From positions 68,449 through 129,490 of the forward strand of contig JAUWKI010000002.1 in NCBI GenBank assembly GCA_030614255.1: a DNA stretch of 61,042 nucleotides, given 5' to 3'. The notes beneath the pieces are model-generated. The model was not told the DNA's origin. It saw nothing but the letters and a program-made list of their open reading frames with translations, and did no database searches. Below are positions 25,489 to 56,453 of the stretch, one piece after another. The position numbers were made by a program, and so were the translations under genes. Source of the DNA: Actinomycetes bacterium. GTDB taxonomy: Bacteria > Actinomycetota > Aquicultoria > UBA3085 > Oleimmundimicrobiaceae. How positions within the stretch are numbered: position 1 is the first letter of the stretch; the number at the start of each line of letters is the position of its first letter.

Positions 25489-25585
25489 TGGCGGGGGCGT
25501 GTGGGAATCGAACCCACCCAGGACGCTCTTAACGCCCCACCGTGGTTTTGAAGACCAGGCGACCCACCAGGACCAATCCGCCCCC
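25489..25585 (-). tRNA. selC: tRNA-Sec (UCA)
   Basis: A 97-base minus-strand tRNA with a 7-8 pair acceptor (GGGGGCG with CGCCCCC), a T-arm GTGGG-TTCGATT-CCCAC and an anticodon loop CTTCAAA giving anticodon TCA. It has a long extra arm (GGGGCG...CGTCC) and an encoded CCA (25489-25491). Extended acceptor, long variable arm and UCA anticodon are diagnostic of selenocysteine tRNA. It sits downstream of selB on the same strand. Confidence 0.95.
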
Positions 25586-38297: not shown

Positions 38298-38432
38298 GAA
38301 AAATATACAACATCTAGATTTATTTATACAAATATCCCCATATATTGTGGATAATCCTGTGGAAATGGGGACAACTAAAGAAATTATTGTTATTTCCACC
38401 CTCCCCCGCCAGAGGCGGACAGGCTGGTAGCT
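38298..38432. repeat. DnaA-box repeat, copy 1
   Basis: First of three copies of an AT-rich repeat. It contains TGTGGATAA (38346-38354, the perfect DnaA box TTATCCACA on the minus strand), then TGTGGAAAT seven bases later, and ends with a short hairpin CCGCCAGAGGCGG. Copies 2 and 3 are at 44389-44526 and 53025-53125. Confidence 0.8.
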
Positions 38433-38474: not shown

Positions 38475-38618
38475 GTGGCTGATGGGAAAAGAAGGGTAAA
38501 GGGAAAGTCAAACCAGCAAATTATCAACTCACTTACTCCAGAAATGAAGGAAAGAGCAATCAAAATGGCGAAAATAAGTGCCGATTCCATTTTAGCTGCA
38601 TTTATGCATAAGAGCTGA
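38475..38618 (+). CDS. possible small protein upstream of the restriction gene
   Basis: A 47-residue frame from a GTG at 38475 with a plausible amphipathic helix (LTPEMKERAIKMAKISADSILAAFMH). There is no strong ribosome site and its 5' part borders repeat copy 1. It ends 34 bases before the restriction-modification gene. Kept as a weak call because the composition looks protein-like. Confidence 0.25.
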   Translation: MADGKRRVKGKSNQQIINSLTPEMKERAIKMAKISADSILAAFMHKS

Positions 38619-38651
38619 TACAATACTATGAAAGAAACTTGGGGGACCAAC

Positions 38652-41627
38652 ATGAGCGCTCCTAAAGAAGTTCTGGAATTAGTCGAAAGATTTGAAAGAA
38701 ATAAAGAAGCATATCGGTCTGGCCAATACAATGAAACCCAACTTCGGCGCGAGTTCATCGACCCATTTTTTAAGGCGCTCGGTTGGGATGTGGATAATGA
38801 GAAGGGCTACGCCGAGGCATACAAAGACGTAATCCACGAAGATGCCATCAAAATTGGAGGTTACACCAAAGCCCCGGATTATTGCTTTCGCATTGGCGGG
38901 GCTCGCAAGTTCTTCGTGGAAGCCAAAAAACCTTCGGTTAATTTAAAAGATGACATAAGCCCCACTTTTCAACTACGACGCTACGCATGGTCAGCAAAGC
39001 TGCCTCTTTCAATCCTCTCAGACTTTGAGGAGTTTGCCGTCTACGACTGCAGAATTAGACCAATCAAAACCGATAAAGCTTCCACGGGACGCATAATTTA
39101 TATTAATAATACAGAGTATTCCCAGCGCTGGGACGAAATTACCACAATCTTTTCCCGTGAAGAAATTCTAAGGGGCTCATTTGATAAATACGCCGAATCA
39201 ACCAAGCGCAAACGCGGCACTGCCGAAGTTGATTCCATTTTTCTTAAGGAAATCGAGCACTGGCGAGAGCTGCTTGCACACAATATTGCCTTACGCAACC
39301 CCAAGCTTAGCACCCGCGAGTTAAATTTTGCCGTTCAACGAACCATCGACCGAATCATCTTCCTTCGTATCTGTGAAGATAGAGGTGTTGAGAACTACGG
39401 CAAGCTCATGGCCTTACAAAACAGTGCGCGAGTTTACAAACGTCTATGCGAGTTATTTCAACGAGCCGACGAGCGATATAATTCCGGGTTGTTCCATTTC
39501 CAAAACGAAAAAGATAATTTGGAACCGCCCGATAATCTAACGCTTAACTTGACTATCGACGATAAACCACTAAAGGATATAGTTAAAAACCTTTATTACC
39601 CTGATAGCCCTTATGAGTTCTCCGTTTTGCCCGCTGAAATTCTCGGTCACATTTACGAGCAATTTCTCGGAAAAGTAATTCGATTGACCCCCGGTCACAG
39701 GGCCGTTGTTGAGGATAAACCAGAGGTTAAAAAAGCGGGTGGAGTTTACTACACGCCTACTTACATCGTGGATTACATCGTAAAAAATACCGTTGGCAAA
39801 CTACTCGAGGGCAAAACTCCCGGCCGAGTTGCTAAAATAAAAATCCTTGACCCCGCCTGCGGCTCCGGCTCATTTCTCATCGGCACTTATCAATATCTGC
39901 TCAACTGGCATCGTGATTGGTATGTAACCGATGGCGCCGATAAACACGCAAAGAAAAAAGTGCTTTACCAGGCCGGCGGCGGAGATTGGAAACTCACCAC
40001 CGCCGAGAAAAAACGAATTTTGCTGAACAACATCTATGGTGTTGACATCGACCCTCAAGCCGTTGAGGTTACCAAGCTCTCATTATTGCTCAAGGTGCTT
40101 GAAGGTGAGACGCAGCTAATCTTATTCCACGAGCGCGCCCTGCCCGATTTGGGCAACAACATTAAATGCGGAAACTCCCTCATCGGCCCAGATTACTACG
40201 AAAACCAGCAGATGAGTTTACTCGATGAAGAAGAATGTTATCAAATAAACGCCTTCGATTGGCAAGCCGAATTCCCAGAAATCATGAAAAATAGTGGATT
40301 TGACACAGTAATCGGCAATCCGCCATATGTGAGACAGGAAGCCCTGGGCAAATTAAAAGACTATTTCAAACAGCATTATCAAGTCTATCACGGAGTTGCC
40401 GATCTCTACGCTTACTTTATCGAGCGTGGCTTATCGCTCCTTAAAAAGGACGGCATCTTTTCATATATCGTCGCAAACAAGTGGATGCGTGCCAACTACG
40501 GAAAACCACTTAGGCAATGGATGAAACAACAACGCATCGAAGAAATTATCGACTTTGGCGACTTACCTGTATTTCAAAAAGCAACAACTTATCCCTGCAT
40601 CCTTCGAATTCGCAAGGATTCAACAAGTAAAACGTTTGACGCGGCTAAAGTAAAAACGTTAAGTTTCATCGAACTTGAAAATTATGTAAGCGAACATCGT
40701 TATAGTGTAAAACAAAAAATGCTCGATGACGGAGGTTGGTCGTTGGCAAACGAAAAAACCCAAACATTGCTCTCAAAGCTACAAAAAATGGGCACGCCGC
40801 TGGGTGAGTACGTCGAGGGTAAAATCTATCGTGGTATTTTAACCGGTCTTAACGAAGCTTTTGTCGTTGACTCTGAAACAAAGAACCGACTTATCTCAGA
40901 AGACCCAAAAAGCGCAGAATTGATAAAACCGTTTTTGCTTGGACGCGATATTAAAAGATATCAACCGCTTAGAAGCAACCAGTATCTAATTTTCACTCGT
41001 CGTGGAGTTAACATAAAAGAATATCCTGCTATTGAGCAACATTTAAGTAATTTCAAAGAAAGATTAATGCCAAGACCAAAGAATTGGAAAGGTAACAGTT
41101 GGGAAGGACGAAAACCTGGACCATATCAATGGTACGAAATCCAAGATACTATTAATTACTATGCTGAGTTTGAAAAGCCGAAGATAATTTACCCAAACAT
41201 TTGCAAAAAACCTGAGTTTACAATCGAGAATTCTAATCAATACACAAATCAAAAGTGTTTCATTATCCCGCTAAACGACAAATATCTCCTCGGCATCTTA
41301 AATAGCTCTATAACATTCCTCCTCTTTAGAGAAATATTGCCTAAACTGCGCGGGGATTTTTATGAACCTAGTTATGTTTTCCTTAAAGATTTTCCAATCC
41401 GCCAAATCGATTTTTCCAACCCAAACGATAAAGCGCGCCACGATAAAATGGTTAAACTGGTGGAGCAAATGCTGACGCTACACAAACAACTATCAGCAGC
41501 AAAAACTGACCACGACAAAACCATAATCCAACGCCAAATCACCACCACCGACCACCAAATTAACCAATTGGTTTATGAATTGTACGGATTAACAGAAGAA
41601 GAAATTAAGATAATTGAGGAGACGTAA
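38652..41627 (+). CDS. type IIG restriction-modification enzyme (Eco57I-like)
   Basis: An enzyme of about 991 residues carrying nuclease and DNA adenine methyltransferase in one chain. An N-terminal PD-(D/E)XK nuclease (about 10-110) has APDYCFRIG and FFVEAKKP. The methyltransferase has the SAM site ILDPACGSGSFLIG and the catalytic NPPY (VIGNPPYVRQE). A TaqI-type specificity domain follows. The ATG at 38652 is preferred over the one at 38628 because GGGGGACC lies just before it. It would both modify and cut the same asymmetric site. First gene of the accessory island, right after repeat copy 1. Confidence 0.9.
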   Translation: MSAPKEVLELVERFERNKEAYRSGQYNETQLRREFIDPFFKALGWDVDNEKGYAEAYKDVIHEDAIKIGGYTKAPDYCFRIGGARKFFVEAKKPSVNLKDDISPTFQLRRYAWSAKLPLSILSDFEEFAVYDCRIRPIKTDKASTGRIIYINNTEYSQRWDEITTIFSREEILRGSFDKYAESTKRKRGTAEVDSIFLKEIEHWRELLAHNIALRNPKLSTRELNFAVQRTIDRIIFLRICEDRGVENYGKLMALQNSARVYKRLCELFQRADERYNSGLFHFQNEKDNLEPPDNLTLNLTIDDKPLKDIVKNLYYPDSPYEFSVLPAEILGHIYEQFLGKVIRLTPGHRAVVEDKPEVKKAGGVYYTPTYIVDYIVKNTVGKLLEGKTPGRVAKIKILDPACGSGSFLIGTYQYLLNWHRDWYVTDGADKHAKKKVLYQAGGGDWKLTTAEKKRILLNNIYGVDIDPQAVEVTKLSLLLKVLEGETQLILFHERALPDLGNNIKCGNSLIGPDYYENQQMSLLDEEECYQINAFDWQAEFPEIMKNSGFDTVIGNPPYVRQEALGKLKDYFKQHYQVYHGVADLYAYFIERGLSLLKKDGIFSYIVANKWMRANYGKPLRQWMKQQRIEEIIDFGDLPVFQKATTYPCILRIRKDSTSKTFDAAKVKTLSFIELENYVSEHRYSVKQKMLDDGGWSLANEKTQTLLSKLQKMGTPLGEYVEGKIYRGILTGLNEAFVVDSETKNRLISEDPKSAELIKPFLLGRDIKRYQPLRSNQYLIFTRRGVNIKEYPAIEQHLSNFKERLMPRPKNWKGNSWEGRKPGPYQWYEIQDTINYYAEFEKPKIIYPNICKKPEFTIENSNQYTNQKCFIIPLNDKYLLGILNSSITFLLFREILPKLRGDFYEPSYVFLKDFPIRQIDFSNPNDKARHDKMVKLVEQMLTLHKQLSAAKTDHDKTIIQRQITTTDHQINQLVYELYGLTEEEIKIIEET

Positions 41628-41630
41628 GAA

Positions 41631-42560
41631 ATGCGAGTTTTCTCTGCTGAATGGATAGACCAAATCAAAAACCGCTATGAGCAAAAACCAAAACACCAAA
41701 GACCAGAAATCTACTTTGTTGCAACCAGCGATAAATATAAAGAATTACGTAATGAGGTTGAAGAATGGGTAGCCGATTTTCCAAAAGCCACTCAAAATAA
41801 ACTAATTCCCAAGCTGCAATCATCCGAAAATTCCATCCAGAACACCTACCACGAATTAGCTGTTGGCAACATGCTTAAAAAACTCGGCTTTCAGATAGAA
41901 TATGAAAAAAAAGTAGATGGCCTTACTCCAGATTGGTATATACAACCGAAAGACAAAACACCAGCTTTCATTGTCGAAGTATCTACGGTCAATCTATCTG
42001 AAGAAACGAAAAAATCGGATAAACAAGTAGTTGACTTACTTAGCAGGCTCAAACAGATTTCCGTCGGTGTTAATCTGAATATCAATTTTAATCGAGACAA
42101 GGTTGTGTTGGATCCAAAACTAAATAAAACCATCTCCAAAAAAGTGGGATGTTGGCTCTTAAACGAGAATCCATCTGTCGGTGCCCAGTTAGACTTAAAT
42201 GGTGTCGTTTTTGAGATTATCCTATTTAATGATAAGTTTCGGAGGGTTCAACCCATGGGTGCCAGTTATGCATCTTTTGTAAACTCAAAACATTTACGTA
42301 AGAAGATTAAAAAAAAGATTTCCAGGTACAAAAAGCAAGCCGAAATGGGCATTCCACTTGTTATCGCTGCGGCTGCCGATCCCGAAATGGGATATGATTT
42401 TGAAAACTTTAAGGAGGCTTTAATCAAACTTAATACTAAAAAGGAATTGAGTGCTGCAATCTGGGTAGGCGAAACAGAATCTAGCGAGAGGGAAATTAAA
42501 GCTATTCACAATCCGGCTGCCATGAACCCTCTACCAAACACCACATTCGATAAGAAATAG
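41631..42560 (+). CDS. putative PD-(D/E)XK nuclease beside the restriction enzyme
   Basis: A 309-residue protein starting 3 bases after the restriction gene, so cotranscribed. A region near 85-120 (FQIEYEKKVDGLTPDWYIQ... then AFIVEVSTVNL) has the spacing of a PD-(D/E)XK nuclease core in which the final Lys is replaced (EVS). The C-terminal part is mixed helix and strand with no known motif. It may be an accessory nuclease, a nickase or a control subunit. The call rests on a short motif only. Confidence 0.5.
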   Translation: MRVFSAEWIDQIKNRYEQKPKHQRPEIYFVATSDKYKELRNEVEEWVADFPKATQNKLIPKLQSSENSIQNTYHELAVGNMLKKLGFQIEYEKKVDGLTPDWYIQPKDKTPAFIVEVSTVNLSEETKKSDKQVVDLLSRLKQISVGVNLNINFNRDKVVLDPKLNKTISKKVGCWLLNENPSVGAQLDLNGVVFEIILFNDKFRRVQPMGASYASFVNSKHLRKKIKKKISRYKKQAEMGIPLVIAAAADPEMGYDFENFKEALIKLNTKKELSAAIWVGETESSEREIKAIHNPAAMNPLPNTTFDKK

Positions 42561-44218: not shown

Positions 44219-44388
44219 GAGAGTAAAGTTTCGTAATCAAGAGCCGAGAATAACCCACAAAAAAGAAACAACTAATCAAACAAGCAAAAATAAATCAACT
44301 GTTATGATTAAAACGAGATTGCTTCGCCGTGCCTACCGGCAGGCAGAGTCTCTGGTGAGAGCCACAAAAAAATAAATTCTTTGAGACA

Positions 44389-44526
44389 ACCAAAAAAATA
44401 GAAAAAATACAATATATGGTGTTATTTATACAAATATACACAATATGTTGTGGATAACTCTGTGGAAATGGGGACAACTAAAGAAATTATTGTTATTTCC
44501 ACCCTCCCCCGCCAGAGGCGGACAGG
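44389..44526. repeat. DnaA-box repeat, copy 2
   Basis: Near-identical to copy 3 through the DnaA boxes (TGTGGATAA at 44449-44457, then TGTGGAAAT) and to copy 1 through the trailing CCGCCAGAGGCGG hairpin. It is directly preceded by the right end of the TIR element (AGTCTCTGGTGAGAGCCAC, 44347-44365), as copy 3 is. Confidence 0.8.
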
Positions 44527-44682
44527 CCTTCATCCCCTCCCGTCAAGGGAGTAGGAAATTTAGCTATCACCCAATAGCTATTTTTGCCATAATTAAATTC
44601 TTTTCATTAAACAGTTTTATTTTATCCGTTTTAGCGAGGGGTAGAGGAGCCGGGGGTGAATGCTCCTCGCCAAAACACCTTA

Positions 44683-45831
44683 TTATTCGTTGCTAATAAA
44701 GATATCGACATATTCTTTATATATGAAGGACTGGCCGTATTTTTTATCTTTATCTTTGGGCGATAGAATTCCCATTTTAATAAATCGCTCAATGACGGTT
44801 TGTGCTCCAGCACGCGTAAATCCTGTCCAAGTTTGAATAACATTATTGTTTACAATTGGCTGACTGTAAAGTTTTGGTAAAATAATAGCGGCGCTTTCTG
44901 AAGCACGTTTTCCTAATTTTTGAATTTTTGTCATATCTCTTTCTCGCAGTAATGTTATTTTATCTACGATATCAATAGCTTCATTGGAAATTTCAATCAC
45001 GCCGTCAAGAAAAAAATCAATCCAATCAGACACATTTCCGTTGTGATATCCAAATAATTTTTCGTAATAGAGTTTTTGATATTTTTTAAAGAAAGACGAT
45101 AAAAACAAGACAGGCCTTTCTAAGTAGCCTTCTTTCCAAAGATAAAAGGTGATTAACATTCTGCCGGTCCTACCATTACCGTCTAAGAACGGATGGATTG
45201 TCTCGAATTGCGCATGGATTATTCCTGCCTTAATTATGGTCGGTATAGTATCATCAGTATGTATAAATTTTTCAAGATCGTTGAGCGCTCTTTGCATATC
45301 ATCAACAGGCGGGGGCACAAAGTGGGCGTTATCCGGACGAGTACCACCAATCCAATTTTGTGTTTTGCGAAATTGGCCTGGATTAGAAAAATGAGTAGAA
45401 CGCGCTTTATGCATAAGTTGTTTGTGTAATTCTCGTATAAATCGAAGTGCCATCGGAAAATTATCCGTTGTTACTCTTTTTATCCCGTAATTAAGCGCTT
45501 GGATGTGGTGTAATATATCTTCAACGTCTTCTGGTATATTTGTTTTTATTTTTATTTCAGCTTCAATGGCATTAATCATTGTCGCCATTGTTCCCTCGAT
45601 TTGGCTTGAGGAAGCAGCATCTTTTCTTAGATACATCAAAAGAAAAAAATCGACATCAGGCAGAAGTTTTGTAATACCATCAAGCTTACCGAGTAATCGA
45701 GTTGCCTTGTCGTTATTCTTTAAAGTTTTTGGATCAAAAACAAAACCTTCCTTCGGTGGAAAAGGATTTGGAACGAAGGCTTTAAATCCATCTTTTTGTT
45801 CAATGTTTGTGCCAATTTTAATATTTTTCAT
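44683..45831 (-). CDS. Fic-family AMP transferase with C-terminal winged helix
   Basis: A 382-residue class II Fic protein that would attach AMP to a target hydroxyl. The inhibitory helix SSQIEG (S-x-x-x-E-G) is near the N-terminus and the catalytic motif is HPFLDGNGRTGR. The C-terminal about 70 residues (QTWTGFTRAGAQTVIERFIKMGIL) form a winged helix that probably binds DNA. The ATG at 45831 is chosen because a promoter lies at 45865-45893, inside the longer open frame that could extend to 45951. Autoregulation by the winged helix is likely (inference). Confidence 0.85.
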   Translation of the reverse strand: MKNIKIGTNIEQKDGFKAFVPNPFPPKEGFVFDPKTLKNNDKATRLLGKLDGITKLLPDVDFFLLMYLRKDAASSSQIEGTMATMINAIEAEIKIKTNIPEDVEDILHHIQALNYGIKRVTTDNFPMALRFIRELHKQLMHKARSTHFSNPGQFRKTQNWIGGTRPDNAHFVPPPVDDMQRALNDLEKFIHTDDTIPTIIKAGIIHAQFETIHPFLDGNGRTGRMLITFYLWKEGYLERPVLFLSSFFKKYQKLYYEKLFGYHNGNVSDWIDFFLDGVIEISNEAIDIVDKITLLRERDMTKIQKLGKRASESAAIILPKLYSQPIVNNNVIQTWTGFTRAGAQTVIERFIKMGILSPKDKDKKYGQSFIYKEYVDIFISNE

Positions 45832-45853
45832 AGTTTGTTTGCATCTTTTATAT

Positions 45854-45867
45854 AATGTATGCAAAGT
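45854..45867. promoter_or_regulatory. direct repeat AATGTATGCAAAGT, first copy (putative Fic operator)
   Basis: The 14-base word overlaps the Fic -10 element. An identical copy lies at 47027-47040, on the far side of the insertion sequence. With the insertion removed the two start 42 bases apart, which suits a pair of operator sites on one face of the helix. Confidence 0.45.
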
Positions 45868-45893
45868 ATATAGGTTTGTATACATTGTGTCAA
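45865..45893 (-). promoter_or_regulatory. promoter of the Fic gene, at the IS junction
   Basis: On the minus strand TTGACA (45888-45893), a 17-base spacer and TATACT (45865-45870). The -35 element directly adjoins the 5-bp target duplication of the insertion sequence, so the core promoter is intact but its upstream region has been replaced. Confidence 0.75.
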
Positions 45894-46981
45894 TAAATTG
45901 TAAGCGTCCATAACATATTGGACTTTTGGGCTGGTATAAAGTTATTAACATAATAAGCGAGTGGGGAGAGCTTGTTAAGCCCTCTGTGTGCTTTTTCAGT
46001 ATTGTACCAAATAAGGTATTTCATTAGGCCGAGGTTAAACTCGCTTGGTTCATATAGTTCATCCATATGCCAGCCGACGTGTTGTTCCTGGATGGTCCGA
46101 TTGAATCTCTCAATATGAGCATTGCTCTTTGGGGATCTGGGGTAGTTGTAGAAATGGATAATCCCTTCATCCTCCAGATACTTATGGAAGAACTTATGGA
46201 ACTCCTTGCCGTTATCCGTCTGAACTCTTCTTGCCTCAAAAGGAATGACCTCTCTTAGCTTGATCATGAAATCACGAGCAGAGGCGGAAGATAGGGTTTT
46301 GTAAGAATAGGCAAAGGCAAAGCGACTTTTAAGATCAATCGCGGTGATGATGTATCTTCTGATACCGAGAAGAAAGATCTCAATCGCATCGATCTGGAGA
46401 AGATCTCCCGGTGTTTTGGGTTTAAAGCCATGGGCCCGGAGTTTTTTAACCCCCTTTTTTCTCTTTCTAAAGATTAGCCTTCCCGTTTTGCCATTGATAG
46501 TAGTTCTGATGTAGTAATCGGGCAATCTTCCTTGCTCTTTAAGATCATGAATAATGCGGCCAATGGTCGATTCGGAGACGGTTTTTAGTCCCAGGGCGAG
46601 ACAGAAAGCATCAGTTGGCGCTTTTAGGGTAGTCTTATCGACTCCGGGGTGCTTGAAGCGATATTCCTTAATAAATTGCACGATAAGAGGGTCTGTCTCT
46701 CTTCTCCTTTTAGTTTTAGGGGTTCGGGAGCCTATCTTAAGTGCGGAGAGACGGCCTCCTTCCTCTCTAAGTTTCTTTTTCCATAAGAAGATAGTCGATC
46801 TTGATTTGCCAAAAACTTTCTTTGTGGCATCGGGGCCGTATTCATTGAAGAACTCGATTATCTTTATCCTTTCAAAGATAATCTGCCTGTCCCGCTCACT
46901 CATATGAGTAATATTTGAGATGTAATTCATGAAGCGATTATATCCGCTTCTAAAGTAGCTTTGAATGTAGATCTGTTGCAT
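45890..46981 (-). CDS. IS481-type transposase
   Basis: A 363-residue DDE transposase with an N-terminal helix-turn-helix (ATKKVFGKSRSTIFLWKKKL) and an integrase-core domain whose catalytic acids are in LLQIDAIEIF, VQTDNGKEF and HIERFNRTIQEQ. The frame is intact, so the element may still be active. Its last codons cross the left end of the element at 45899, ending in the flanking sequence. Confidence 0.92.
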   Translation of the reverse strand: MQQIYIQSYFRSGYNRFMNYISNITHMSERDRQIIFERIKIIEFFNEYGPDATKKVFGKSRSTIFLWKKKLREEGGRLSALKIGSRTPKTKRRRETDPLIVQFIKEYRFKHPGVDKTTLKAPTDAFCLALGLKTVSESTIGRIIHDLKEQGRLPDYYIRTTINGKTGRLIFRKRKKGVKKLRAHGFKPKTPGDLLQIDAIEIFLLGIRRYIITAIDLKSRFAFAYSYKTLSSASARDFMIKLREVIPFEARRVQTDNGKEFHKFFHKYLEDEGIIHFYNYPRSPKSNAHIERFNRTIQEQHVGWHMDELYEPSEFNLGLMKYLIWYNTEKAHRGLNKLSPLAYYVNNFIPAQKSNMLWTLTIY

Positions 46982-47029: not shown

Positions 47030-47415
47030 GTATGCAAAGTTTAATGAATTATCCAGCCACAGCAGAGCTGCTGGGTATTTACTTTTTAGATGAAAAATAT
47101 ATTTCGCCTAACGTATGGCGGATGAACGAAGTGCCTCGTCAGAGGCATTTGTACACCCTATATTTAACATGGTATTCCTCTGCAAGAACTCACTTCGTTA
47201 TTTTTTCACATTCACGATATATACATATATCATATTTACCAAACATTTGTTCGATTATCAAGAGCTCTTACCAATCCTTATAAATTTTTCATAAATATAT
47301 TACTTCTTTATTCTCCAATTCCAATGCAACTCCCTTTAAGAAAATGCCTTTTAGACAATGACCAACAGCTATTTTTACCATATCATTTTTTCCAGAGCTT
47401 TCACCACAATCAGAT
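47030..47415. other. intergenic region right of the IS
   Basis: Begins with the displaced copy of the putative Fic operator (47027-47040). The remainder, AT-rich, holds no gene or recognised repeat; it is the end region of the GHKL operon transcribed toward it. Confidence 0.4.
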
Positions 47416-49065
47416 TCAAGCTCTATTCCGAAATAAATCAGCAGTTCTTCGAGAAATTCTATCTACTATCTCTCGTACTTCTGCTATTGCTTCAATTGCA
47501 TCATAATATTCGCCCAACTTATCCGCTAATTCGTGAGGTATCGCCAGCGCATATTCAGTGAAAGCTATCTCATAAGATAACTGTCTAAAAGCTTGGTTTT
47601 CCAAACCATCACCACCTATAGAAGCATTGACCTGAGGGTGATCAAGATTGATAACGATAATTTTTGTATCTCCCTCATATCTGGAACGAGGAGCATCTTC
47701 AGTCTCGTTCCTGTAATCAATACTGAAACCGCCTCGGCGCGACTTCCTGCCTTTTGAACTAACGCGCGAGGAAGAACCAGCGCTTTGGCCAGATACAAAA
47801 TCAAGGCCTGTCCTGGGCTCTTCTCCATCTCTTGGTAACCCATCACCAGACTCCCCATCTTTATGAGGTGCTCCAGCTTCCTGAAGGGAACTTTCTTCTT
47901 CCCCTTCACCAGGTAAAACTTCAGAGGAATCCTCGCCGCCAATCAAGTCTCTTAAAGCAGTAAGAGGTCCCACCTCATGACCAGCTGAAGCACTAGCTCT
48001 TGCAAGTTCACGCCGGTAAGCTTCAAAGTCCTCGTTTAAAACTTCTGCAATTTGTTGAGCTTGCTCACTTAACCGTTTTGCCTCTTCGCTCGCTCGTCTC
48101 TGCCTTTCTTCCTTAACAAGTTGTAAGCGTACATTTTCTATGCAATCTTGTAACCAGCTATATAAAACTCTCACAAGTTGATTCTCTGGGTTCAAACAGC
48201 CACTACGAGTATTATCAAAAGAAGGAATTGGCGAATTATCAAGTTCAAGTGCTGGCACATCAATCTCACCAAAAATATATTGAACCATTTCCTTTCCGCC
48301 AAGCTCAACTAGTGTAGTCTCATGCCAAATACCATTTGAAAGTATATCTATTCCATTTAACGCAGAGCTAAGTGGAGTTGGGGAAACTCTGATAATGCAC
48401 ACGACATTGCCAAGAGTATCTTTTAGATTACTTGGAACTTGAAATTGCTCCTCTCTTACAAAGGACTGTTCTTGATATTGGCACAGATGACCATTAATAA
48501 TAACTGAGTGTACCTGTTGATGCCTTCCTAAATGTCTTTCCACATAATCAATTGAGCCTTTCACGTCAATGCGATTTCTCGACAAATTTATGTTTGTTAT
48601 TTCAATTATTGTGCCCGGGCTTTCCACGGTGAACTCATCAATTACAATTTCTTTAACCGGAAATGGTTCACCTGTTCTAGCTTCTTCAATACCCGTACGA
48701 TGCAGCTCAACAACATTTTTGAATCCATCTTTCACTGTTTCCACCCTTAACACATCCGCTATACCAAAAGCAGCACATTTGCCCGTACCAAATCTGCCTC
48801 TAACCAACCTGCCCACAGCCCTCTGAATATTTTCGCCATGCATTTGAAAAAAGCGCTTTAGATCCTCTTGGGACATACCAGAAGCATTGTCTTTAACCAG
48901 TATTCGATTTTTTGAAATTGAAACTTCGCACACAACAGGCTCACTATTGCGAGGGTTATCCAGTGAATTGGATACGTACTCCCAAACAACCTTAAGCACA
49001 TTATTAAAATAAGCAGCATTTTGAAGAAAATCGCGTGCAACGTGGCTCGAAACTTCAATTGTCAT
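47416..49065 (-). CDS. GHKL/Hsp90-type ATPase, last gene of a four-gene putative defence operon
   Basis: A 549-residue protein with a Bergerat ATP-binding fold: N box EYVSNSLDN (about 29-37), G1 box VKDNASGM (57-64) and G2 box GRFGTGKCAAFG (89-100). This groups it with Hsp90, MutL and MORC-like ATPases, not with histidine kinases (no His-phosphorylation domain). A transducer-like domain follows, then a helical segment (about 325-370), a disordered Gly/Glu/Ser-rich stretch and a C-terminal helical domain starting IIVINLDHPQV. It overlaps the upstream gene by 11 bases. Probably a nucleotide-switched clamp or scaffold. Confidence 0.85.
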   Translation of the reverse strand: MTIEVSSHVARDFLQNAAYFNNVLKVVWEYVSNSLDNPRNSEPVVCEVSISKNRILVKDNASGMSQEDLKRFFQMHGENIQRAVGRLVRGRFGTGKCAAFGIADVLRVETVKDGFKNVVELHRTGIEEARTGEPFPVKEIVIDEFTVESPGTIIEITNINLSRNRIDVKGSIDYVERHLGRHQQVHSVIINGHLCQYQEQSFVREEQFQVPSNLKDTLGNVVCIIRVSPTPLSSALNGIDILSNGIWHETTLVELGGKEMVQYIFGEIDVPALELDNSPIPSFDNTRSGCLNPENQLVRVLYSWLQDCIENVRLQLVKEERQRRASEEAKRLSEQAQQIAEVLNEDFEAYRRELARASASAGHEVGPLTALRDLIGGEDSSEVLPGEGEEESSLQEAGAPHKDGESGDGLPRDGEEPRTGLDFVSGQSAGSSSRVSSKGRKSRRGGFSIDYRNETEDAPRSRYEGDTKIIVINLDHPQVNASIGGDGLENQAFRQLSYEIAFTEYALAIPHELADKLGEYYDAIEAIAEVREIVDRISRRTADLFRNRA

Positions 49066-49660
49066 CTTTATTACCTCCCTGATTTTCAGTCAAAAATCTT
49101 CCTCTTAAAAAAACCAAAAAATCTGCAATGTCTTTCTCCTCGCTGAAAAGATTCTCCAATTTCTGCATGCGCTCTCGAATCCTTGTCTTACTAAAGTATT
49201 CATTAACTTTTAAAAGTGAGTAAACATCATAAATATTTATGTCTTCCTTTTGACCCAAAGAATATTTTTGATATGCCTTGCTTGCTAGCAAATGTTGCTT
49301 TTCGCGATTGTAATAAAATTCTCTATTGCTGCGCGACTTAGACTTTAAAGAAGCATCGCTTTCAATTTTACTCATTTTTTTTAAAATATTTTTTGCTTCT
49401 TCCGCGCCTTGAGAGGTAAGCATCCAACTTTTGTTCGGCATGCGTCTAACTAACAGACCATGTTTTTTCTCGCTAGCGTCTTCGAGCGAAAACCTCACTA
49501 AAGCTTTATCTATATTTTTAGGATACTTTCTCCAACAAAATTTTCTAGGTTCCAGATTATAGGTCTCGATTGCTATGTCTTCGAGATCAACAGACTTTAC
49601 ATCTCCACTTAGATTTAACAAAGCAACCAAAACCCAGTCCATATTCCTCATGCTACCCAC
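49055..49660 (-). CDS. winged-helix protein of the putative defence operon
   Basis: A 201-residue protein. The first about 95 residues (MDWVLVALLNLSG, VDLEDIAIETYNLEPRKFCWRKYPK, LLVRRMPNKSWMLTSQGAEEAK) have a winged-helix-like order that I associate with proteins of defence operons. The rest is helical and basic. It overlaps both neighbours (8 bases with the 904-residue gene, 11 with the ATPase gene), so the three are translationally coupled. No enzyme motif is seen. Confidence 0.65.
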   Translation of the reverse strand: MGSMRNMDWVLVALLNLSGDVKSVDLEDIAIETYNLEPRKFCWRKYPKNIDKALVRFSLEDASEKKHGLLVRRMPNKSWMLTSQGAEEAKNILKKMSKIESDASLKSKSRSNREFYYNREKQHLLASKAYQKYSLGQKEDINIYDVYSLLKVNEYFSKTRIRERMQKLENLFSEEKDIADFLVFLRGRFLTENQGGNKDDN

Positions 49661-52367
49661 TCTCCTTATTATTAAGTACTTCTAGTAAAGCCGTTTTCGT
49701 TCTTGGGTCAAATGTAATAGTTATTGCTGTGTCTTCGTAAAATTTCTCGGCTCTGAACCATTTACCAGCTCGTGAAATATAATAATCCCCGACTTTTAGT
49801 ATATAATTGTTCTCCCCTGTATCTCTTCCTTTCCAAAGCCCCACAAGACCAAGTTTTTTACCCCGCACCGGAAGCAAGCCATTTCTCAGTGTGGCAGCAT
49901 TCAACTTATACTCCAGCCGAATCTTGCCATCACTATTATACGAGATTGCACGTACAACCTTTCCACGCTTTTCTTGTCTTCTCATGGCAGCACGAACGTC
50001 ACTCAAACCGAACCTTGCCCCGACTTTACACACCAACCCCTCACCAATGAGCAAAAACAGACCAGAACCATAAATTGCTAATTGAGCAGTAACAGAATTA
50101 ACGTTCATGTCAACTAACTTATTTTGAAGCTCAGCAGTCGGCATAATAGGACCCATATCATCTATCAAGCTTATTGCTTTTTTCTCCGCATCACTAAGTA
50201 GATTGGCATCCTTGGCGGATTTTGAGACGAACCTCACAGCATCCCCTTCTAAAATTAATGAAGAATCCAAAGAGATTATCTTTGAAAGAATTTCCGGTGG
50301 AGGGACCACCTCCACACGACGAATTCTTCTAAGCGCTTTATATATATCCTTTAGGCTAAGCTGAGAGCAAACTTGCAGCATCCTATAAATCCGTCTTAGT
50401 AAAGGATTCCAGCGTTTTCCTAAGTCAAAAGGCTTCATAAACCAGCCATTCCCAAGATCATATTCGGGAAACATTTGTTTGGCTATAGATACAAGCTGTT
50501 CATTTGAAAACGAGAGCTCTTCTTCTTCAAGGAGATGAAATAAGCCTTTAACATTCACTACACCATTCCTTAGTAAAACTTTTTTGATTAGCTTAGCTGC
50601 TTTCACAACTTTCTTGAAATCATCCTCATTTAGAAACCAAACTTCGAGATCACGGTCAAAATGGAAGAGAATATTTTTGCCAAATGGGGTTCCTGATAAA
50701 TTAGCTAGCGCTGTTAGCTCCTCTTGAAAGGAAATCAGTTTCTGCGCAATCATCTTCCCCGCTAATTGTTCATGAAAAATCCAGCCTCCAGATTTTTTTA
50801 TTTCGTTTTCGAGATAATGCACACCAAATATAAAGCAAGTTTTACTTTTTAATCTTGCTTCTACCCCTTTAGTGGCACGAGTCTCAATTTGCCGAATCCG
50901 CTCTCTCGTTACACCCATAAAATCTCCGACTTCTTGAAGAGTTTTTTTTCCATGTCCATCCCAACCCCATCTTTTCTTTAGTATAGTTATCTCACGTGAC
51001 GAAAGCTCCCCAAGAAGAGCTTCAAGTTCACTAGATATCCCAGGATAAGACTGCACCCATTCATCAATTTTCTTCAAGGCATCTTCTATTGAAGCAATAA
51101 ATCTAGGTGAAGGAGAATAAATTGTATTTATTGCTACCGCTAGCGGAATAGGATTCCCTGAAAATGAAACTCTAAATCTGAAATCGTTAGTTAAAATGGC
51201 TCCAAGAAAACTAGCTTGTTTTTCACAGATTTCTTTTGCTTTAGACGAGATACATTCCTTAAGTAGTTTGCTTTCATAAGTTTGAACCTCTTCTTCATAT
51301 TCAATAAGGTCATTAATATACAAAGTGAGTGCTACGATTACCTCAACAAATGTTTTTATGCCCATGAATCTAATTCTCGTTAAATCATAAACCGAGCATG
51401 CCAAAAGCTCTCCTATTCTTTCAATGCTCGAATTTTTTAAACAATTTCCGGCCCTTTCTGACAACTCAAGAGTACTAATTGGCAAAAAAATCAAACTTGA
51501 CAGTATCTTATAATTGCCATTTAATAACTGTTGCTTACGAATTTGGGATAGATGCTTCCCGGTAGGTACAAACTTCCACACCCTGAACTTATCTTCTATC
51601 AGTAAACTAAGATCGCCATAAATGGTATTCAGCTCCCTGTTCCGAATGCCAAATTTCGTACATTCTTGTTTCCCAAGTCTCAAAAATTGACCAAGAGTTG
51701 CTATGCCCCCTGCTTCTAACCGACTACTGTAAGAAGGAATCGCTTGTTTGATATTTATTGAATCCTTTGCAAAAATTTTAGAAGCAGGGTCGCCAGATGT
51801 TAGTTTCGGCGATTCTTTTATTAAAATACTGTTTTCATCTGTAACCGGAAAAATATGAGGCAGACTTGGATGTACACCCAAATCGACAAGTGCTAAATGA
51901 AGATACAGCTCCGTAAAAGTCTTGGCGCCAAGATTCTTTATTTTTGCGATACCACTGATAAAACTATACGAAAGAGTCCCAACGGTAAAAATTCTATTTC
52001 TACGAATAATATTCGAAGCGCGCACAGAAAGCCCTAAGTCCACTAATGGAATTATCTCAACCTCTACTTTTAGGCCTTCGTAGAAAGGGCGAGGGAAAGA
52101 GGAAAGAGTAATCATTTTAGTGCTTACTACATTAATTAACGACAATCGAATTGCTTCAATATCTTTTAATGAAAAACAACACAACTTAACTAGATCACCA
52201 TTGTTGTACCCATCAAAATTGGCCAGCTTTACAAAGCCATTTTTCACAAGACACCAAATTATTTTTGGATTAAGATTTAAACTATCTACCCTGTGGTTAA
52301 ATGCTAATTCTAAACCTGGTGTAACAAGTGGGGACGCTTTTTGCATAAATACAAAATGCATTTCCAT
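49653..52367 (-). CDS. large protein with alpha-CTD-like repeats and sigma-70 region 4
   Basis: A 904-residue protein unlike a standard sigma factor. Up to four helix-hairpin-helix units resembling the RNA polymerase alpha C-terminal domain occur at about 26-80, 106-165 (LGLSVRASNIIRRNRIFTVG...IKNLGAKTFTEL), 212-258 and 293-350 (LELSERAGNCL...MGIKTFVEV). At 452-506 there is a clear sigma region 4 (LSSREITILKKRWGW, LQEVGDFMGVTRERIRQIE). Region 2 is absent. The C-terminal 390 residues contain several winged-helix-like stretches. AAGGAG precedes the ATG. It probably binds DNA, perhaps mimicking or blocking polymerase contacts. Confidence 0.75.
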   Translation of the reverse strand: MEMHFVFMQKASPLVTPGLELAFNHRVDSLNLNPKIIWCLVKNGFVKLANFDGYNNGDLVKLCCFSLKDIEAIRLSLINVVSTKMITLSSFPRPFYEGLKVEVEIIPLVDLGLSVRASNIIRRNRIFTVGTLSYSFISGIAKIKNLGAKTFTELYLHLALVDLGVHPSLPHIFPVTDENSILIKESPKLTSGDPASKIFAKDSINIKQAIPSYSSRLEAGGIATLGQFLRLGKQECTKFGIRNRELNTIYGDLSLLIEDKFRVWKFVPTGKHLSQIRKQQLLNGNYKILSSLIFLPISTLELSERAGNCLKNSSIERIGELLACSVYDLTRIRFMGIKTFVEVIVALTLYINDLIEYEEEVQTYESKLLKECISSKAKEICEKQASFLGAILTNDFRFRVSFSGNPIPLAVAINTIYSPSPRFIASIEDALKKIDEWVQSYPGISSELEALLGELSSREITILKKRWGWDGHGKKTLQEVGDFMGVTRERIRQIETRATKGVEARLKSKTCFIFGVHYLENEIKKSGGWIFHEQLAGKMIAQKLISFQEELTALANLSGTPFGKNILFHFDRDLEVWFLNEDDFKKVVKAAKLIKKVLLRNGVVNVKGLFHLLEEEELSFSNEQLVSIAKQMFPEYDLGNGWFMKPFDLGKRWNPLLRRIYRMLQVCSQLSLKDIYKALRRIRRVEVVPPPEILSKIISLDSSLILEGDAVRFVSKSAKDANLLSDAEKKAISLIDDMGPIMPTAELQNKLVDMNVNSVTAQLAIYGSGLFLLIGEGLVCKVGARFGLSDVRAAMRRQEKRGKVVRAISYNSDGKIRLEYKLNAATLRNGLLPVRGKKLGLVGLWKGRDTGENNYILKVGDYYISRAGKWFRAEKFYEDTAITITFDPRTKTALLEVLNNKESG

Positions 52368-52390
52368 TTCTATATCCCGCTCCTTGAATA

Positions 52391-52627
52391 TTAGAGCTTG
52401 AATTCCTTTTTTCTGTTTCTCTTAAACCTAGCCCTTGCTACTTTTAATTCTTCCTCAATAGCTAGAAATATTTTTTTTACATCTTCATCTGTGTAATCAT
52501 AAAAACTCCTATTCGCACAATTGCTTAATATTCGAAGTTTTTTTAAAATCTCGTTTGTTCTTAATGTTGCGAGTCTTTTAAACCTATCCTTGGGAGTTTC
52601 ATTCTTTTTATTAGTTGAACCGCTCAT
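52391..52627 (-). CDS. small basic protein, first gene of the putative defence operon
   Basis: A 78-residue protein from the ATG at 52627 (GGGAG upstream; a TTG 12 bases further out is less likely). The core RFKRLATLRTNEILKKLRILSNCANRSFYDYTDEDVKKIF is helical with a basic tail. I have no function for it. It is 23 bases upstream of the 904-residue gene and is expressed from the promoter at 52667-52695. Confidence 0.65.
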   Translation of the reverse strand: MSGSTNKKNETPKDRFKRLATLRTNEILKKLRILSNCANRSFYDYTDEDVKKIFLAIEEELKVARARFKRNRKKEFKL

Positions 52628-52666
52628 CTTTGCTCCCAATGTAAAATAAGAATATTTACTTTTTAA

Positions 52667-52695
52667 ATGTTAACTCATTTACAAAATAATGTCAA
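52667..52695 (-). promoter_or_regulatory. promoter of the four-gene defence operon
   Basis: On the minus strand TTGACA (52690-52695), 17 bases and TAACAT (52667-52672): a strong sigma-70 match. Confidence 0.75.
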
Positions 52696-52711
52696 TAAAA
52701 AATTATATAAC

Positions 52712-52723
52712 ACTTATATAAGT
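52712..52723. promoter_or_regulatory. 12-bp palindrome upstream of the defence promoter
   Basis: ACTTATATAAGT is a perfect palindrome centred about 25 bases upstream of the -35 element. It could be an activator site or an AT-rich UP element. Confidence 0.35.
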
Positions 52724-52850
52724 AAATACTAAACAATAGAAAGTGAGCTACACCAAACAACGATGAGATGATATGGGCAAACAATTTGACCTATTTACTA
52801 TATCGTTTTTAGGCATAAATGCTTTTTCTTCTTAGGTTCTTAAACACCTC

Positions 52851-53002
52851 GTGGCTCTTGCTAGAGCGACTCTGAGCACGCCGTCAAACGAGTGAGGCTC
52901 GAGTAGCAGCGGCAAATCGCGTGCCCAAAGGGTAAATAGCGATTTCGCTCTACGAGAGTAGGCGAGTAGGCGCGCGCAAGCAGAGTCTCAGGTGAGAGCC
53001 AC
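52851..53002. repeat. TIR element, copy A (152 bp)
   Basis: The left end GTGGCTCTTGCTAGAGCGACT and the right end, read inwards GTGGCTCTCACCTGAGACT, are imperfect inverted repeats. The interior (TAAATAGCGATTTCGCTCT and so on) has further hairpins and no reading frame. A second, nearly identical copy is at 53494-53666; fragments are at 20226-20257 and 44344-44365. It looks like a non-autonomous, MITE-like element. Confidence 0.65.
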
Positions 53003-53024
53003 AAAAAAATAAATTCTTTAAGGC

Positions 53025-53125
53025 AACCAAAAAATAGAAAAAAATACAATATATGGGGTTGTTTATACAAATATACACAATATATTGTGGATAACTCTGT
53101 GGAAATGGGGAAAACTAAAGAAATT
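53025..53125. repeat. DnaA-box repeat, copy 3
   Basis: Contains TGTGGATAA (53086-53094) followed by TGTGGAAAT, and the same AT-rich left half as copy 2. It directly follows TIR element copy A. It lacks the trailing hairpin of copies 1 and 2, diverging after AAAGAAATT. Confidence 0.8.
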
Positions 53126-53756: not shown

Positions 53757-56453
53757 CTACTTGCTTCTTGTTTTTTTCACACGCACCGCACACACCTTAA
53801 GCTCAGGAATTTTTGATATCGGGTCAAGTGCAGAGTTGGTAAGCATATTTATCGGAGACTCCTTGAAATGGAAAGGCACAAATATGGTTCCTTTTGGAAC
53901 GCGATGAGTTACACATGCTTTAACTTTCACTCTTCCGCGACGTGAGGCAAGCTCGACCCAATCATCGTCTTTTATCTTAAACTTTTTGGCATCCTCGGGA
54001 TTTATCTCAACCCTGGCCTCTTTACAAACCTCATCAAGCCCCATGGAATGCCTGGTCATCGTGCCGGTATGAAAGTGATATAGAAGTCTCCCGGTAGTTA
54101 AGATAAACGGGTATTCTTTATCGGGTTCTTCCGCCGGCGGTCTGTATTCAACAGTGTGAAACTTGCCCAATCCGCGAGCAAATTTTTCCGTATGAAGAAT
54201 CGGTGTCCCCGGATGCGTTGCATCTGGACACGGCCACTGAACACTTTCTCCGCTTATTCTCTCAAACGTTATTCCGCCATAAGTTGGGGTGATGTCCGCA
54301 ATCTCCTTGGTGATCTCGGCAACCGTAGTGTAGTCCATGTCATAACCCATGGCCTTTGCCAAATCGGAGATTATCAGCCAGTCCGGTCGGGCGTTGCTAA
54401 CCGGGGTAATAGCCCTTCTTACCCTTTGAACTCGCCTCTCGGTATTGGTAAATGTTCCATCCTTCTCGGCGAAAGTAACTCCCGGCAATACAACGTCGGC
54501 TAGTTCAGCTGTCTCAGTTAAAAATATGTCCTGAACAACCAAAAAATCCAACTTTTCAAAAGCTTTTTTCACATGACTTAAATCGGGATCCGAAAGCATA
54601 GGGTTTTCGCCCAAAATATAGATGGCTTTAACTTCGCCACGCAAAGCGGCATCCGTCATTTCGGTAATGCTTAACCCGGGCTTTTTCGGAAGTTTTACTC
54701 CCCAAATATCTTTACATTTATCAATAATTCCCGAATCGCAGACATTTTGATAGCCGCTTATACAGCCGGGAAGTGCTCCCATATCACAAGCACCCTGGAC
54801 GTTGTTTTGTCCCCGAAGAGGGTTAACTCCGGTTCCGGGTCTTCCGATGTTTCCGGTAAGCATAGCCAGATTAGCGATGGAGAGGACATTATCAGTACCG
54901 GTTGTATGCTGGGTAATGCCCATGCAATAGAAGATTGCTCCATTCTTAGCCGAGGCAAACAGTCGTGCTGCCTCCCGCAGAGAATCCGCTGGGATGCCGG
55001 AAATCTTCTCGACTTCCTCGGGTGTATAATTGGCAACTACTTTCTTTAATTCTTCATAACTTTCTGTCCTATTCTCGATAAACTTTTTATCTTCGAGGCC
55101 CTCTCCGATTATCACGTTCATGAGGCCGTTTAAGACCGCGACATCGGTTCCCGGTTTTTGAGAGAGCCACGTATGAGCATATTCAGTCAGCCGAATTTCT
55201 CTGGGGTCTATCACAATAATCTCTGCGGCGAAATCGGAGACCGCCCTTTTCATCTCGAGAGCAACTATCGGATGATTCTCGGTGGTATTCGAGCCGATAA
55301 CAAGAATCACATCGGCTTTATATATGTCAGCGATGGAATTTGTCATCGCCCCACTCCCAAACGCTTTGACCAGACCGGCCACCGTTGGAGCGTGTCACAA
55401 CCGGGCACAATGGTCGATATTGTTTGTGCCAATCACCGCCCTCATAAATTTCTGCATCAAATAATTTTCCTCGTTGGTGCACTTTGCCGAGGAGAGCCCC
55501 GCAATCGCATCGGGACCGTGTCTCTTCTTTATCCTTGAAAACTTGTCTGCAACAGTTTTAATCGCCTCATCCCAGGAAGCCTCAACAAGCTTCCCATCTT
55601 TTCGAACCAACGGAGAGGTAAGCCGGTCGGGATGATTCACAAAGTCGTAACCAAACCGCCCCTTTGCACACGTGTTCCCCTTATTTATACCGCCCTCGAC
55701 ATCGGACGAAACGCGAACGATTTCACCATCTTTAACTTGAAGCTCGAGCTCGCAGCCACAACCGCAGTAAGGACAGATCGTCTTTACTTTTTCTATCTCC
55801 CAAATTCGCCCCTTATACCTGCTCATCTTCTCAGTTAAAGCTCCTGTTGGACATGTAGATATACACTGCCCGCAAAGCTCGCATTTTGTCTCAATGAGCG
55901 ACCTGTCATAAGGAGTTGTTACTACGGCATCGAAACCTCGATTTGCAAAGGTATATATTCTATCCTGTTGAACCTCTTCGCAGATGCGAACACAGCGACC
56001 GCAGAGGATACACTTATTTAAATCTCTCTCAATCAAGGGGTTGTAATCTTCAATGGTATAGGTGTGTCTTTCTCCTTCAAAACGGTTCTCTTCTATCCCC
56101 AGCTCATAAGCTAAATCTTGCAGCTGACACTGGCCGGCACTCTCACAAGTTACACAGCTCAACTCATGGTCGGAGAGCAACAGCTCAACTATAGTTCTCC
56201 TTATTTTATAAAGTGGAATCGTATTTGTCTTTACGACCATTCCATTGGCAATCTCAGTTGCGCAAGCGGGTAAAAAGTTTCTTGCGCCCTCAACTTCAAC
56301 AAGACACACCCGACAAGCTCCGTAGGGTTCGAGCCGTGGGTCGTGACAAAGAGTAGGTATTTTTATGCCGTTCTCTTTGGCAACCTCAAGTATAGTTTGG
56401 CCCGATTCGGCCTCAATTTTTTTATCATTAATCGTTAAGCTTATCTTAGGCAT
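53757..56453 (-). CDS. fdhA: selenocysteine formate dehydrogenase alpha subunit (NAD-linked type)
   Basis: One gene interrupted by an in-frame TGA at 55395-55397 read as selenocysteine (residue 353 of about 898). The context DHCARL-Sec-HAPTVAGL matches the active site of formate dehydrogenase. The N-terminus is NuoG-like: a [2Fe-2S] domain (HDPRLEPYGACRVC), His-Cys3 cluster (HELSCVTCESAGQC), two [4Fe-4S] sites (CILCGRCVRIC and CELCGQCISTC) and the CPYCGCGCE cluster of the Mo/W domain. The rest binds two pterin guanine dinucleotides. It oxidises formate or reduces CO2 and passes electrons to the NuoF/NuoE-like partners upstream. Confidence 0.95.
55352..55394 (-). promoter_or_regulatory. SECIS-like hairpin after the UGA codon of fdhA
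   Basis: Immediately 3' of UGA, the RNA CACGCTCCAACG pairs with CGTTTGGGAGTG (10 of 12 positions), and an upper stem GGCC/GGTC closes a GGTCT loop. The E. coli fdhF SECIS has the same GGUCU loop at the same distance. This is the bacterial signal that recruits SelB. Confidence 0.85.

Follow-up and report, generated by a model that had tools for sequence, protein, structure and literature searches.

Prokaryotic MORC proteins and paraMORC1-5 combine a GHKL ATPase domain with an S5-type module, show a sporadic, mobile distribution and have restriction-modification (R-M) neighbours; some of their operons carry a VP1/RAV (B3-type) DNA-binding protein, and sigma domains are not mentioned in the same paper (PMC2292703). 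GHKL-Shedu VcSduA (paraMORC3) is a GHKL ATPase with a proven anti-phage role and a C-terminal PD-(D/E)xK nuclease (PMC12137116). In the CapK/CapS pair, CapK is a helix-turn-helix (HTH)-STAS-GHKL kinase and CapS a STAS-winged HTH repressor, and both are located upstream of diverse immune operons (PMC13373217). Finally, a sigma-related HTH is present within DndH of some Gammaproteobacteria (PMC10853773), so such helices do occur in defence proteins.

Here we describe a cassette in which a MORC-like GHKL ATPase is combined with a large protein carrying a sigma-70 region 4 and with a 201-residue partner, and which we regard as a variant within GHKL/MORC-centred, defence-associated systems. It lies in an Actinomycetes bacterium of the family Oleimmundimicrobiaceae (assembly GCA_030614255.1, contig JAUWKI010000002.1, positions 68,449 to 129,490), on a stretch of 61,042 nucleotides referred to as the window. 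The cassette may encode a MORC-like clamp that is directed to promoters and silences DNA entering the cell, a reading to which we assign a probability of about 0.4.

Operon organization and conservation of the three-gene core

Four minus-strand open reading frames (ORFs), overlapping or closely spaced, occupy positions 47416-52639 of the window, all of them where a first-pass annotation made from the sequence alone had placed them. The operon is composed as follows:

52391-52639, minus strand: 82-residue basic protein (ORF list), member of a family of ~76-residue proteins
49653-52367, minus strand: 904-residue putative promoter-reading protein with alpha C-terminal domains (alpha-CTDs), sigma region 4, three winged helices and a B3-like domain
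49055-49660, minus strand: 201-residue partner protein, presumed winged helix, of a family kept in every locus
47416-49065, minus strand: 549-residue MORC-like GHKL ATPase with GHKL domain, S5-type domain, 70-residue coiled coil and C-terminal domain
52667-52695, minus strand: candidate sigma-70-like promoter TTGACA-17-TAACAT ahead of the operon (10/12 match)

The first two genes are separated by 23 nt, the second and third overlap by 8 nt and the third and fourth by 11 nt. The length of the 82-residue ORF is counted from TTG at 52639; an alternative ATG at 52627 is preceded by GGAG and appears, from the sequence, the likelier start. A strong promoter had been proposed as well. The site is present, but 18 sites of that quality occur in the region against 14.9 +/- 3.5 in shuffles; since the count does not exceed this expectation, the promoter is plausible and not significant.

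Full-length searches with the 904-residue protein were swamped by RpoD, and an alignment of three ATPases was therefore used as query against one genome per species (84,980 species). Thirty loci were retrieved. In all of them the sigma-4 protein and a 201-residue-type protein adjoin the ATPase, although neither was part of the query. Orthologous three-gene sets in every retrieved locus show that these genes are real and not chance ORFs, and the proposed tie between the sigma-4/alpha-CTD protein and the GHKL ATPase is thus a conserved one. The four genes do not recur as a unit: the 82-residue gene is absent from all 30 other loci and was rejected as a core component, which leaves a conserved core of three genes. 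Among the 30 loci, L064 and L065 are near-identical, and L058, L068 and L073 come from the same genomes as G182, G007 and G278 (L, locus; G, genome).

By record titles, the three-gene unit occurs in at least seven bacterial phyla, namely Chloroflexota, Actinomycetota, Pseudomonadota, Bacteroidota, Bacillota, Acidobacteriota and Poribacteria, together with a bin labelled Parcubacteria. Pairwise distances of the three core proteins correlate with r of 0.83-0.88, a value reached by none of 5000 permutations; the three genes co-diverge. The cassette is single copy per genome except for two weak extra matches, and the sigma-4 gene lies upstream, downstream or in divergent orientation, its placement having changed four times on the tree. 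The cassette tree intermixes phyla, Chloroflexota alone requiring at least 6 changes. Transfer is therefore indicated, and the tree points to horizontal movement between phyla. In the phylum of the host, the cassette or a variant of it was found in 5 of 394 genomes.

Pattern search of genomes and viral contigs with the 904-residue protein yielded nothing, and search of viral contigs with the ATPase was likewise negative. Plasmids and phages contain no match to the 904-residue protein; one distant ATPase without partner genes resides on a Rhizobium plasmid. No match was obtained in E. coli genomes at the DNA level.

Domain organization of the 904-residue protein

The large protein contains both types of RNA polymerase-related domains that the first-pass annotation had recognized. 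Sigma-70 region 4 is matched by Pfam Sigma70_r4 (residues 451-499, E 7e-12). Up to four alpha-CTD-like units had been suggested, two of which are supported: RNA_pol_A_CTD is matched in two stretches (Pfam E 6e-22, best at 294-347) and NCBIfam places another alpha-CTD at about residues 110-165. Three winged helices and the C-terminal B3-like domain are additions to the earlier description. The domains are located as follows:

51870-52049, minus strand: alpha-CTD 1, residues ~107-166, with LSVRASN and GAKT motifs
51321-51497, minus strand: alpha-CTD 2, residues ~291-349, with LSERAGNCL and GIKT motifs (Pfam, AlphaFold2)
50844-51038, minus strand: sigma-70 region 4, residues 444-508, TRERIRQ recognition helix nearly invariant in 28 relatives
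50025-50627, minus strand: three tandem winged helices, residues 581-781 (AlphaFold2 secondary structure, pLDDT mostly 80-94)
49671-49970, minus strand: putative B3-like DNA-binding domain, residues ~800-899 (Foldseek match)

Region 4 is present in all 28 relatives of the protein, alpha-CTD in 15. The most conserved stretch consists of the -35-reading residues in the helix TRERxRQ, where T487, R488, E489, R490, R492 and Q493 are kept in 26-28 of the 28 sequences; we take them to be equivalent to R584/E585/R588/Q589 of sigma-70. The first-pass annotation had suggested that the large protein may sense or block polymerase; conservation of this -35 reader supports the view that the protein may bind promoters. 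Sigma-70 regions 2 and 3, responsible for melting and -10 recognition, were not found, the window protein and its relatives carrying region 4 only; region 3 was matched in one of the 28 (E 0.004). The segment that follows region 4 has a constant length of 396-436 residues in all intact relatives, and the length of the N-terminal part ranges between about 50 and 510 residues. In Arthrobacter (L069, 6812-9326) the large protein is apparently split into two overlapping ORFs (363 and 477 residues), so that region 4 and the remainder are encoded apart from the N-terminal part.

An AlphaFold2 model, built on a 28-sequence alignment, has a mean predicted local distance difference test (pLDDT) score of 62.9. 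Its confident parts are alpha-CTD 2, region 4, the three winged helices and a C-terminal beta domain (~800-899). Foldseek search with the whole model returned plant B3 DNA-binding domains and sigma region 4 as top matches, the best being FUS3 B3-DNA (E 1.7e-3, prob 1.00), along with LEC2, VAL1, ARF and TEM1. Foldseek output gives no query range; the B3 match probably belongs to residues ~800-899, since the model has no other beta-rich domain of such a size. Neither the C-terminal nor the winged-helix segment found a credible counterpart when searched by sequence against the PDB, and a viral structure library searched with the large protein returned only sigma and alpha-CTD domain matches. Alpha/sigma hybrid proteins, in which a HARE-HTH domain is fused to alpha-CTD and sigma-4 features, were reportedly described by Aravind and Iyer in 2012. 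There is no HARE-HTH Pfam match at E <= 1 in the 904-residue protein, for which three winged helices are predicted.

The MORC-like ATPase and its 201-residue partner

The presence of a Bergerat-fold ATPase in the operon was confirmed by a HATPase_c_3 match in the 549-residue protein (Pfam E 3e-14). Its structure model (mean pLDDT 79.5) is closest to Hsp90 homologues when matches are ranked by E-value, and to MORC2-DNA, MORC3 and MORC4 when they are ranked by TM-score (0.42-0.45 normalized to the query, MORC2-DNA 0.45). The protein shares with human MORC2, MORC3 and MORC4 the overall fold of GHKL domain, transducer and coiled coil; it differs in sequence (about 14% identity), C-terminal domain and partners. 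As in MORCs and paraMORCs, an N-terminal GHKL domain with motifs conserved in 28 sequences is followed by an S5 domain. All GHKL boxes are fully or almost fully conserved (E29, N33, D59, G63 and GTGK in 28/28), except that the window ATPase has A61 instead of the usual first glycine of the G1 box (Gly in 26/28). The S5 domain is followed by the 70-residue coiled coil and this domain:

47419-47736, minus strand: ATPase C-terminal domain, residues 444-549, with invariant R460, N473, H476, E499 and Y505

Neither Pfam nor the structure model revealed a nuclease in the window ATPase, and Pfam detected no TIR or RecB-type domain in it.

The 201-residue family is compact, with E27, A30, F41, W43 and A129 invariant. 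The window member has no Pfam match, and PDB search with the family returned nothing; the winged helix assigned to it earlier is a pattern that neither hidden Markov models nor PDB sequences support. Proteins of the 201-residue type also pair with a different, Hsp90-like GHKL ATPase (L043 263-3143, L081 8586-11554 and L082 3321-6297), an apparent second type of system with the same partner family.

Comparison with described systems

The cassette resembles MORC and paraMORC systems in its GHKL plus S5-type module, sporadic mobile distribution and R-M neighbours. MORC R-M operons differ from it, as the constant partners here are the sigma-4/B3 protein and the 201-residue protein; no superfamily 2 (SF2) helicase, methyltransferase or nuclease is constant across cassette loci, methyltransferases occurring in a minority. 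With GHKL-Shedu the cassette shares a GHKL ATPase, without a recognizable counterpart of the VcSduA nuclease. CapK/CapS is similar in linking a GHKL protein and a winged-helix protein to diverse immune operons. It lacks sigma region 4, alpha-CTD and B3 domain, and conversely no STAS domain was detected by Pfam in any of the four operon proteins.

MZA (MzaABCDE) likewise combines sigma-related MzaA and GHKL ATPase MzaB in a defence-associated operon. Membership in MZA was rejected: NF041931 (MzaA) scores 45 bits against a cut-off of 800 and covers residues 444-505 only, and NF041932 (MzaB) scores 12.6 bits against 850. The cassette differs from MZA in having alpha-CTD, winged helices and a B3-like domain. 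No mzaC, mzaD or mzaE was found among window neighbours or among the 25 of 41 neighbour families listed for 16 loci. The ATPase was also rejected as a BbrUII/HgiDII restriction enzyme (70.8 bits against a cut-off of 550, best stretch residues 20-208).

The cassette is contained in none of PADLOC 2.0.0, NCBIfam and Pfam, and PADLOC gave no specific full-length match, only partial ones to REase_II (residues 18-178), MzaA and PglW. The earlier statement that no system of this composition has been described was put to a refuting check against PADLOC and NCBIfam and stood; judged by sequence matches and by papers under open licence, no named system corresponds to the cassette.

An accessory insertion in a genomic hotspot

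Among five sampled genomes of the host's family, the four-gene operon is present in the host only. In a genome of a sister genus (G117) the following segment is missing:

47383-53033, no strand: segment missing in G117, where the same site is L124 8151-8267

The flanks in G117 are collinear with the window (GH57 gene, Fic gene, then formate dehydrogenase genes), and the site lacks both the operon segment and the transposase gene. Genes for a type IIG R-M enzyme, for a SoFic-type protein and for a transposase neighbour the operon in the window. These comparisons support the operon as an accessory insertion in a hotspot.

Several other features of this region were noticed. The type IIG R-M gene (38586-41631) is present in family genome G138 (L127) with 84-87% DNA identity and missing in G117, so hotspot content differs between genera. 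It is followed by a gene for a 309-residue protein (41631-42560) with a weak partial PD-T7-5 match (E 4e-8). The Fic gene (44683-45951) is 94% identical in DNA to the same-site copy of G117, compared with ~70-80% for the flanks, which reflects recent exchange or strong selection. Dispersed direct repeats with TGTGGATAA (DnaA-box-like) motifs lie between cassettes at 38300-38424, 44339-44527 and 52976-53125, and one copy of the repeat remains at the empty site of G117. A selenocysteine tRNA gene is located at 25489-25585 and formate dehydrogenase-type genes at 53757-56453.

Neighbouring genes and possible function

Since the window neighbours had been taken as a sign of a defence role, genes within 6 kb on either side of 16 related loci were compared with 14 control regions from the same genomes (PADLOC, E <= 1e-20). 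Four of the 16 loci have a CBASS cyclase with effector, Lamassu, type IIG R-M or an AriAB-like ATPase among the matches listed; controls yielded housekeeping-type matches only (UvrD, GlgB, DEDDh and AAA-type). Matches to MzaA and RTasDnaG-like proteins, probably RpoD and DnaG of L066, were not counted, nor were RT_UG29 and PDC-S11, which were not traced to a locus. Outside the matched set, DSR1 (L068), a type II methyltransferase (L033) and further methyltransferases (L059, L064) were observed. Defence genes are thus more frequent here than in matched controls, and part of the family resides among metabolic genes.

We propose that the cassette would be a self-contained, horizontally moving, defence-type unit. 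The large protein might serve as a DNA-addressing platform: sigma region 4 would read -35-like elements, alpha-CTDs (in half of the family) would bind A+T-rich upstream DNA, and the three winged helices and the B3-like domain would provide extra DNA contacts. In this way the 201-residue partner and the MORC-like ATPase could be brought to promoters of incoming DNA, on which the ATPase would close as an ATP-driven dimer clamp, so that transcription is blocked or silenced. The clamp step is modelled on eukaryotic MORC proteins, which compact and silence DNA. Preference for foreign DNA might come e.g. from modification state or unoccupied promoters. It is more doubtful, and in our opinion rather improbable, that, in a defence mechanism of a new type, the promoter-reading surface of the cell's own polymerase (sigma region 4 with alpha-CTDs) is fused to restriction-enzyme-type B3/winged-helix readers and forms an address label, which directs a MORC-like ATP clamp to the promoters of invaders and silences these without cutting; such silencing would possibly be a bacterial counterpart, or even a relative, of eukaryotic MORC silencing.

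Several immune genes lie close to the cassette on the same strand. In L074 (9986-13745), CBASS cyclase and 2TM effector genes begin 74 bp past the MORC-like ATPase, apparently in one transcription unit with the cassette. A DSR1-like sirtuin gene begins 59 bp past the ATPase gene in L068 (4447-9685; = L041), Lamassu LmuA/B overlap the cassette from upstream in L054, and a methyltransferase is located 62 bp upstream in L064. This arrangement speaks for a function in controlling the immune operons next to the cassette, a role like that of CapK/CapS, which are themselves found upstream of diverse immune operons (PMC13373217). The sigma-4/alpha-CTD protein would then be an RNA polymerase-linked regulator, the 201-residue protein a repressor or co-regulator, and the ATPase a sensor that, in response to infection or DNA damage, activates the defence genes nearby. 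Region 4 and alpha-CTD, being transcription parts, fit such a role. Many copies, however, have no immune gene within 6-10 kb, and the side on which immune genes are found, upstream or downstream, differs between loci, both of which the controller explains less well than the silencing clamp does. Moreover, the GHKL-S5-coiled coil ATPase is MORC-like and differs from HTH-STAS-GHKL CapK, with no STAS domain detected. We therefore consider the controller unlikely, though it is the strongest competitor of the clamp.

Type IIG R-M genes accompany the cassette in L069 and in the window, and methyltransferase genes in L033, L059 and L064. Together with the N-terminal similarity of the ATPase to BbrUII/HgiDII (70.8 bits) and the association of MORCs and paraMORCs with R-M (PMC2292703), this might indicate an accessory part of R-M systems that, as proposed for paraMORCs, would loop or remodel the DNA lying between a recognition and a cleavage site on behalf of an R-M enzyme, whether its gene is close by or elsewhere. 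Yet the loci do not share one R-M family, most of them lack R-M genes within 6 kb, and, in contrast to described MORC operons, no SF2 helicase or nuclease is a constant partner; an R-M accessory is quite improbable.

Several observations weigh against a silencing clamp. No nuclease, toxin or other effector is recognizable in the cassette. Enrichment of defence neighbours is small (4/16 loci versus 0/14 controls, one-sided p about 0.07, calculated by hand), and the CBASS, DSR1 and Lamassu neighbours are complete systems seemingly in the same transcription unit, which fits a regulator too. Outside its domains the large protein is poorly modelled, and the B3 assignment consists of Foldseek matches of one domain without sequence support. 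In Chloroflexota loci L046, L048, L049, L051, L052 and L053, whose flanks are long, neighbours are metabolic; L048, L049, L051 and L053 share one conserved site near fumarase/superoxide dismutase and transporter genes, which suggests stable, vertical inheritance there over long time.

This syntenic site in four Chloroflexota genomes, like the transcription-type domains, would also suit a chromosomal regulator of the ordinary kind, acting in transcription or on the nucleoid, that is transferred now and then and has no role in defence. Patchy occurrence in the host's phylum (5/394 genomes), intermixing of phyla on the tree, presence or absence between sister genera at the hotspot and defence neighbours in many other lineages are at odds with it, and we rate it as improbable as the R-M accessory.

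The 82-residue protein and related operons

No credible Pfam or NCBIfam match was obtained for the 82-residue protein. Its family, of ~76 residues, heads other operons with GHKL ATPase or restriction genes. Such genes directly precede GHKL-type ATPases (HATPase_c_3 weakly matched) on Agrobacterium and Dinoroseobacter plasmids and, judged by eye, proteins with GHKL-like motifs in Arthrobacter, Priestia, Planococcus, Ensifer, L113 and L114. These operons often adjoin cytosine methyltransferase, Vsr and type II restriction genes. In L112 a ~76-residue gene stands before a type III R-M and SIR2-like/HerA-like set (by eye). In the host's own family, a homologue of the 82-residue protein (49% identical) precedes a 201-residue-type protein and an Hsp90-like GHKL ATPase (L043). 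Because it is absent from core loci and its family heads other GHKL and restriction operons, the 82-residue gene seems to have been recruited locally from immune operons of the GHKL type.

A recurrent operon of this kind (L100-L102, L113) encodes a ~76-residue protein, a ~600-630-residue protein with GHKL-like motifs, a 258-295-residue protein and a DUF6339-type protein. It adjoins methyltransferase, Vsr or restriction genes and is possibly an undescribed system.

Conclusions

We consider the cassette a good candidate for a mechanism, new in kind, that blocks foreign DNA. Silencing of foreign promoters, if it occurs, would amount to nuclease-free immunity guided by polymerase recognition signals, which are hard for phages to change; bacterial MORC-like ATPases would then be connected with the silencing that MORC proteins perform in animals and plants. 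Should the cassette be a regulator instead, CBASS, sirtuin, Lamassu and R-M systems would have a controller of a new type. Further GHKL-based immune operons can be sought with two handles, the related 76- and 201-residue proteins.

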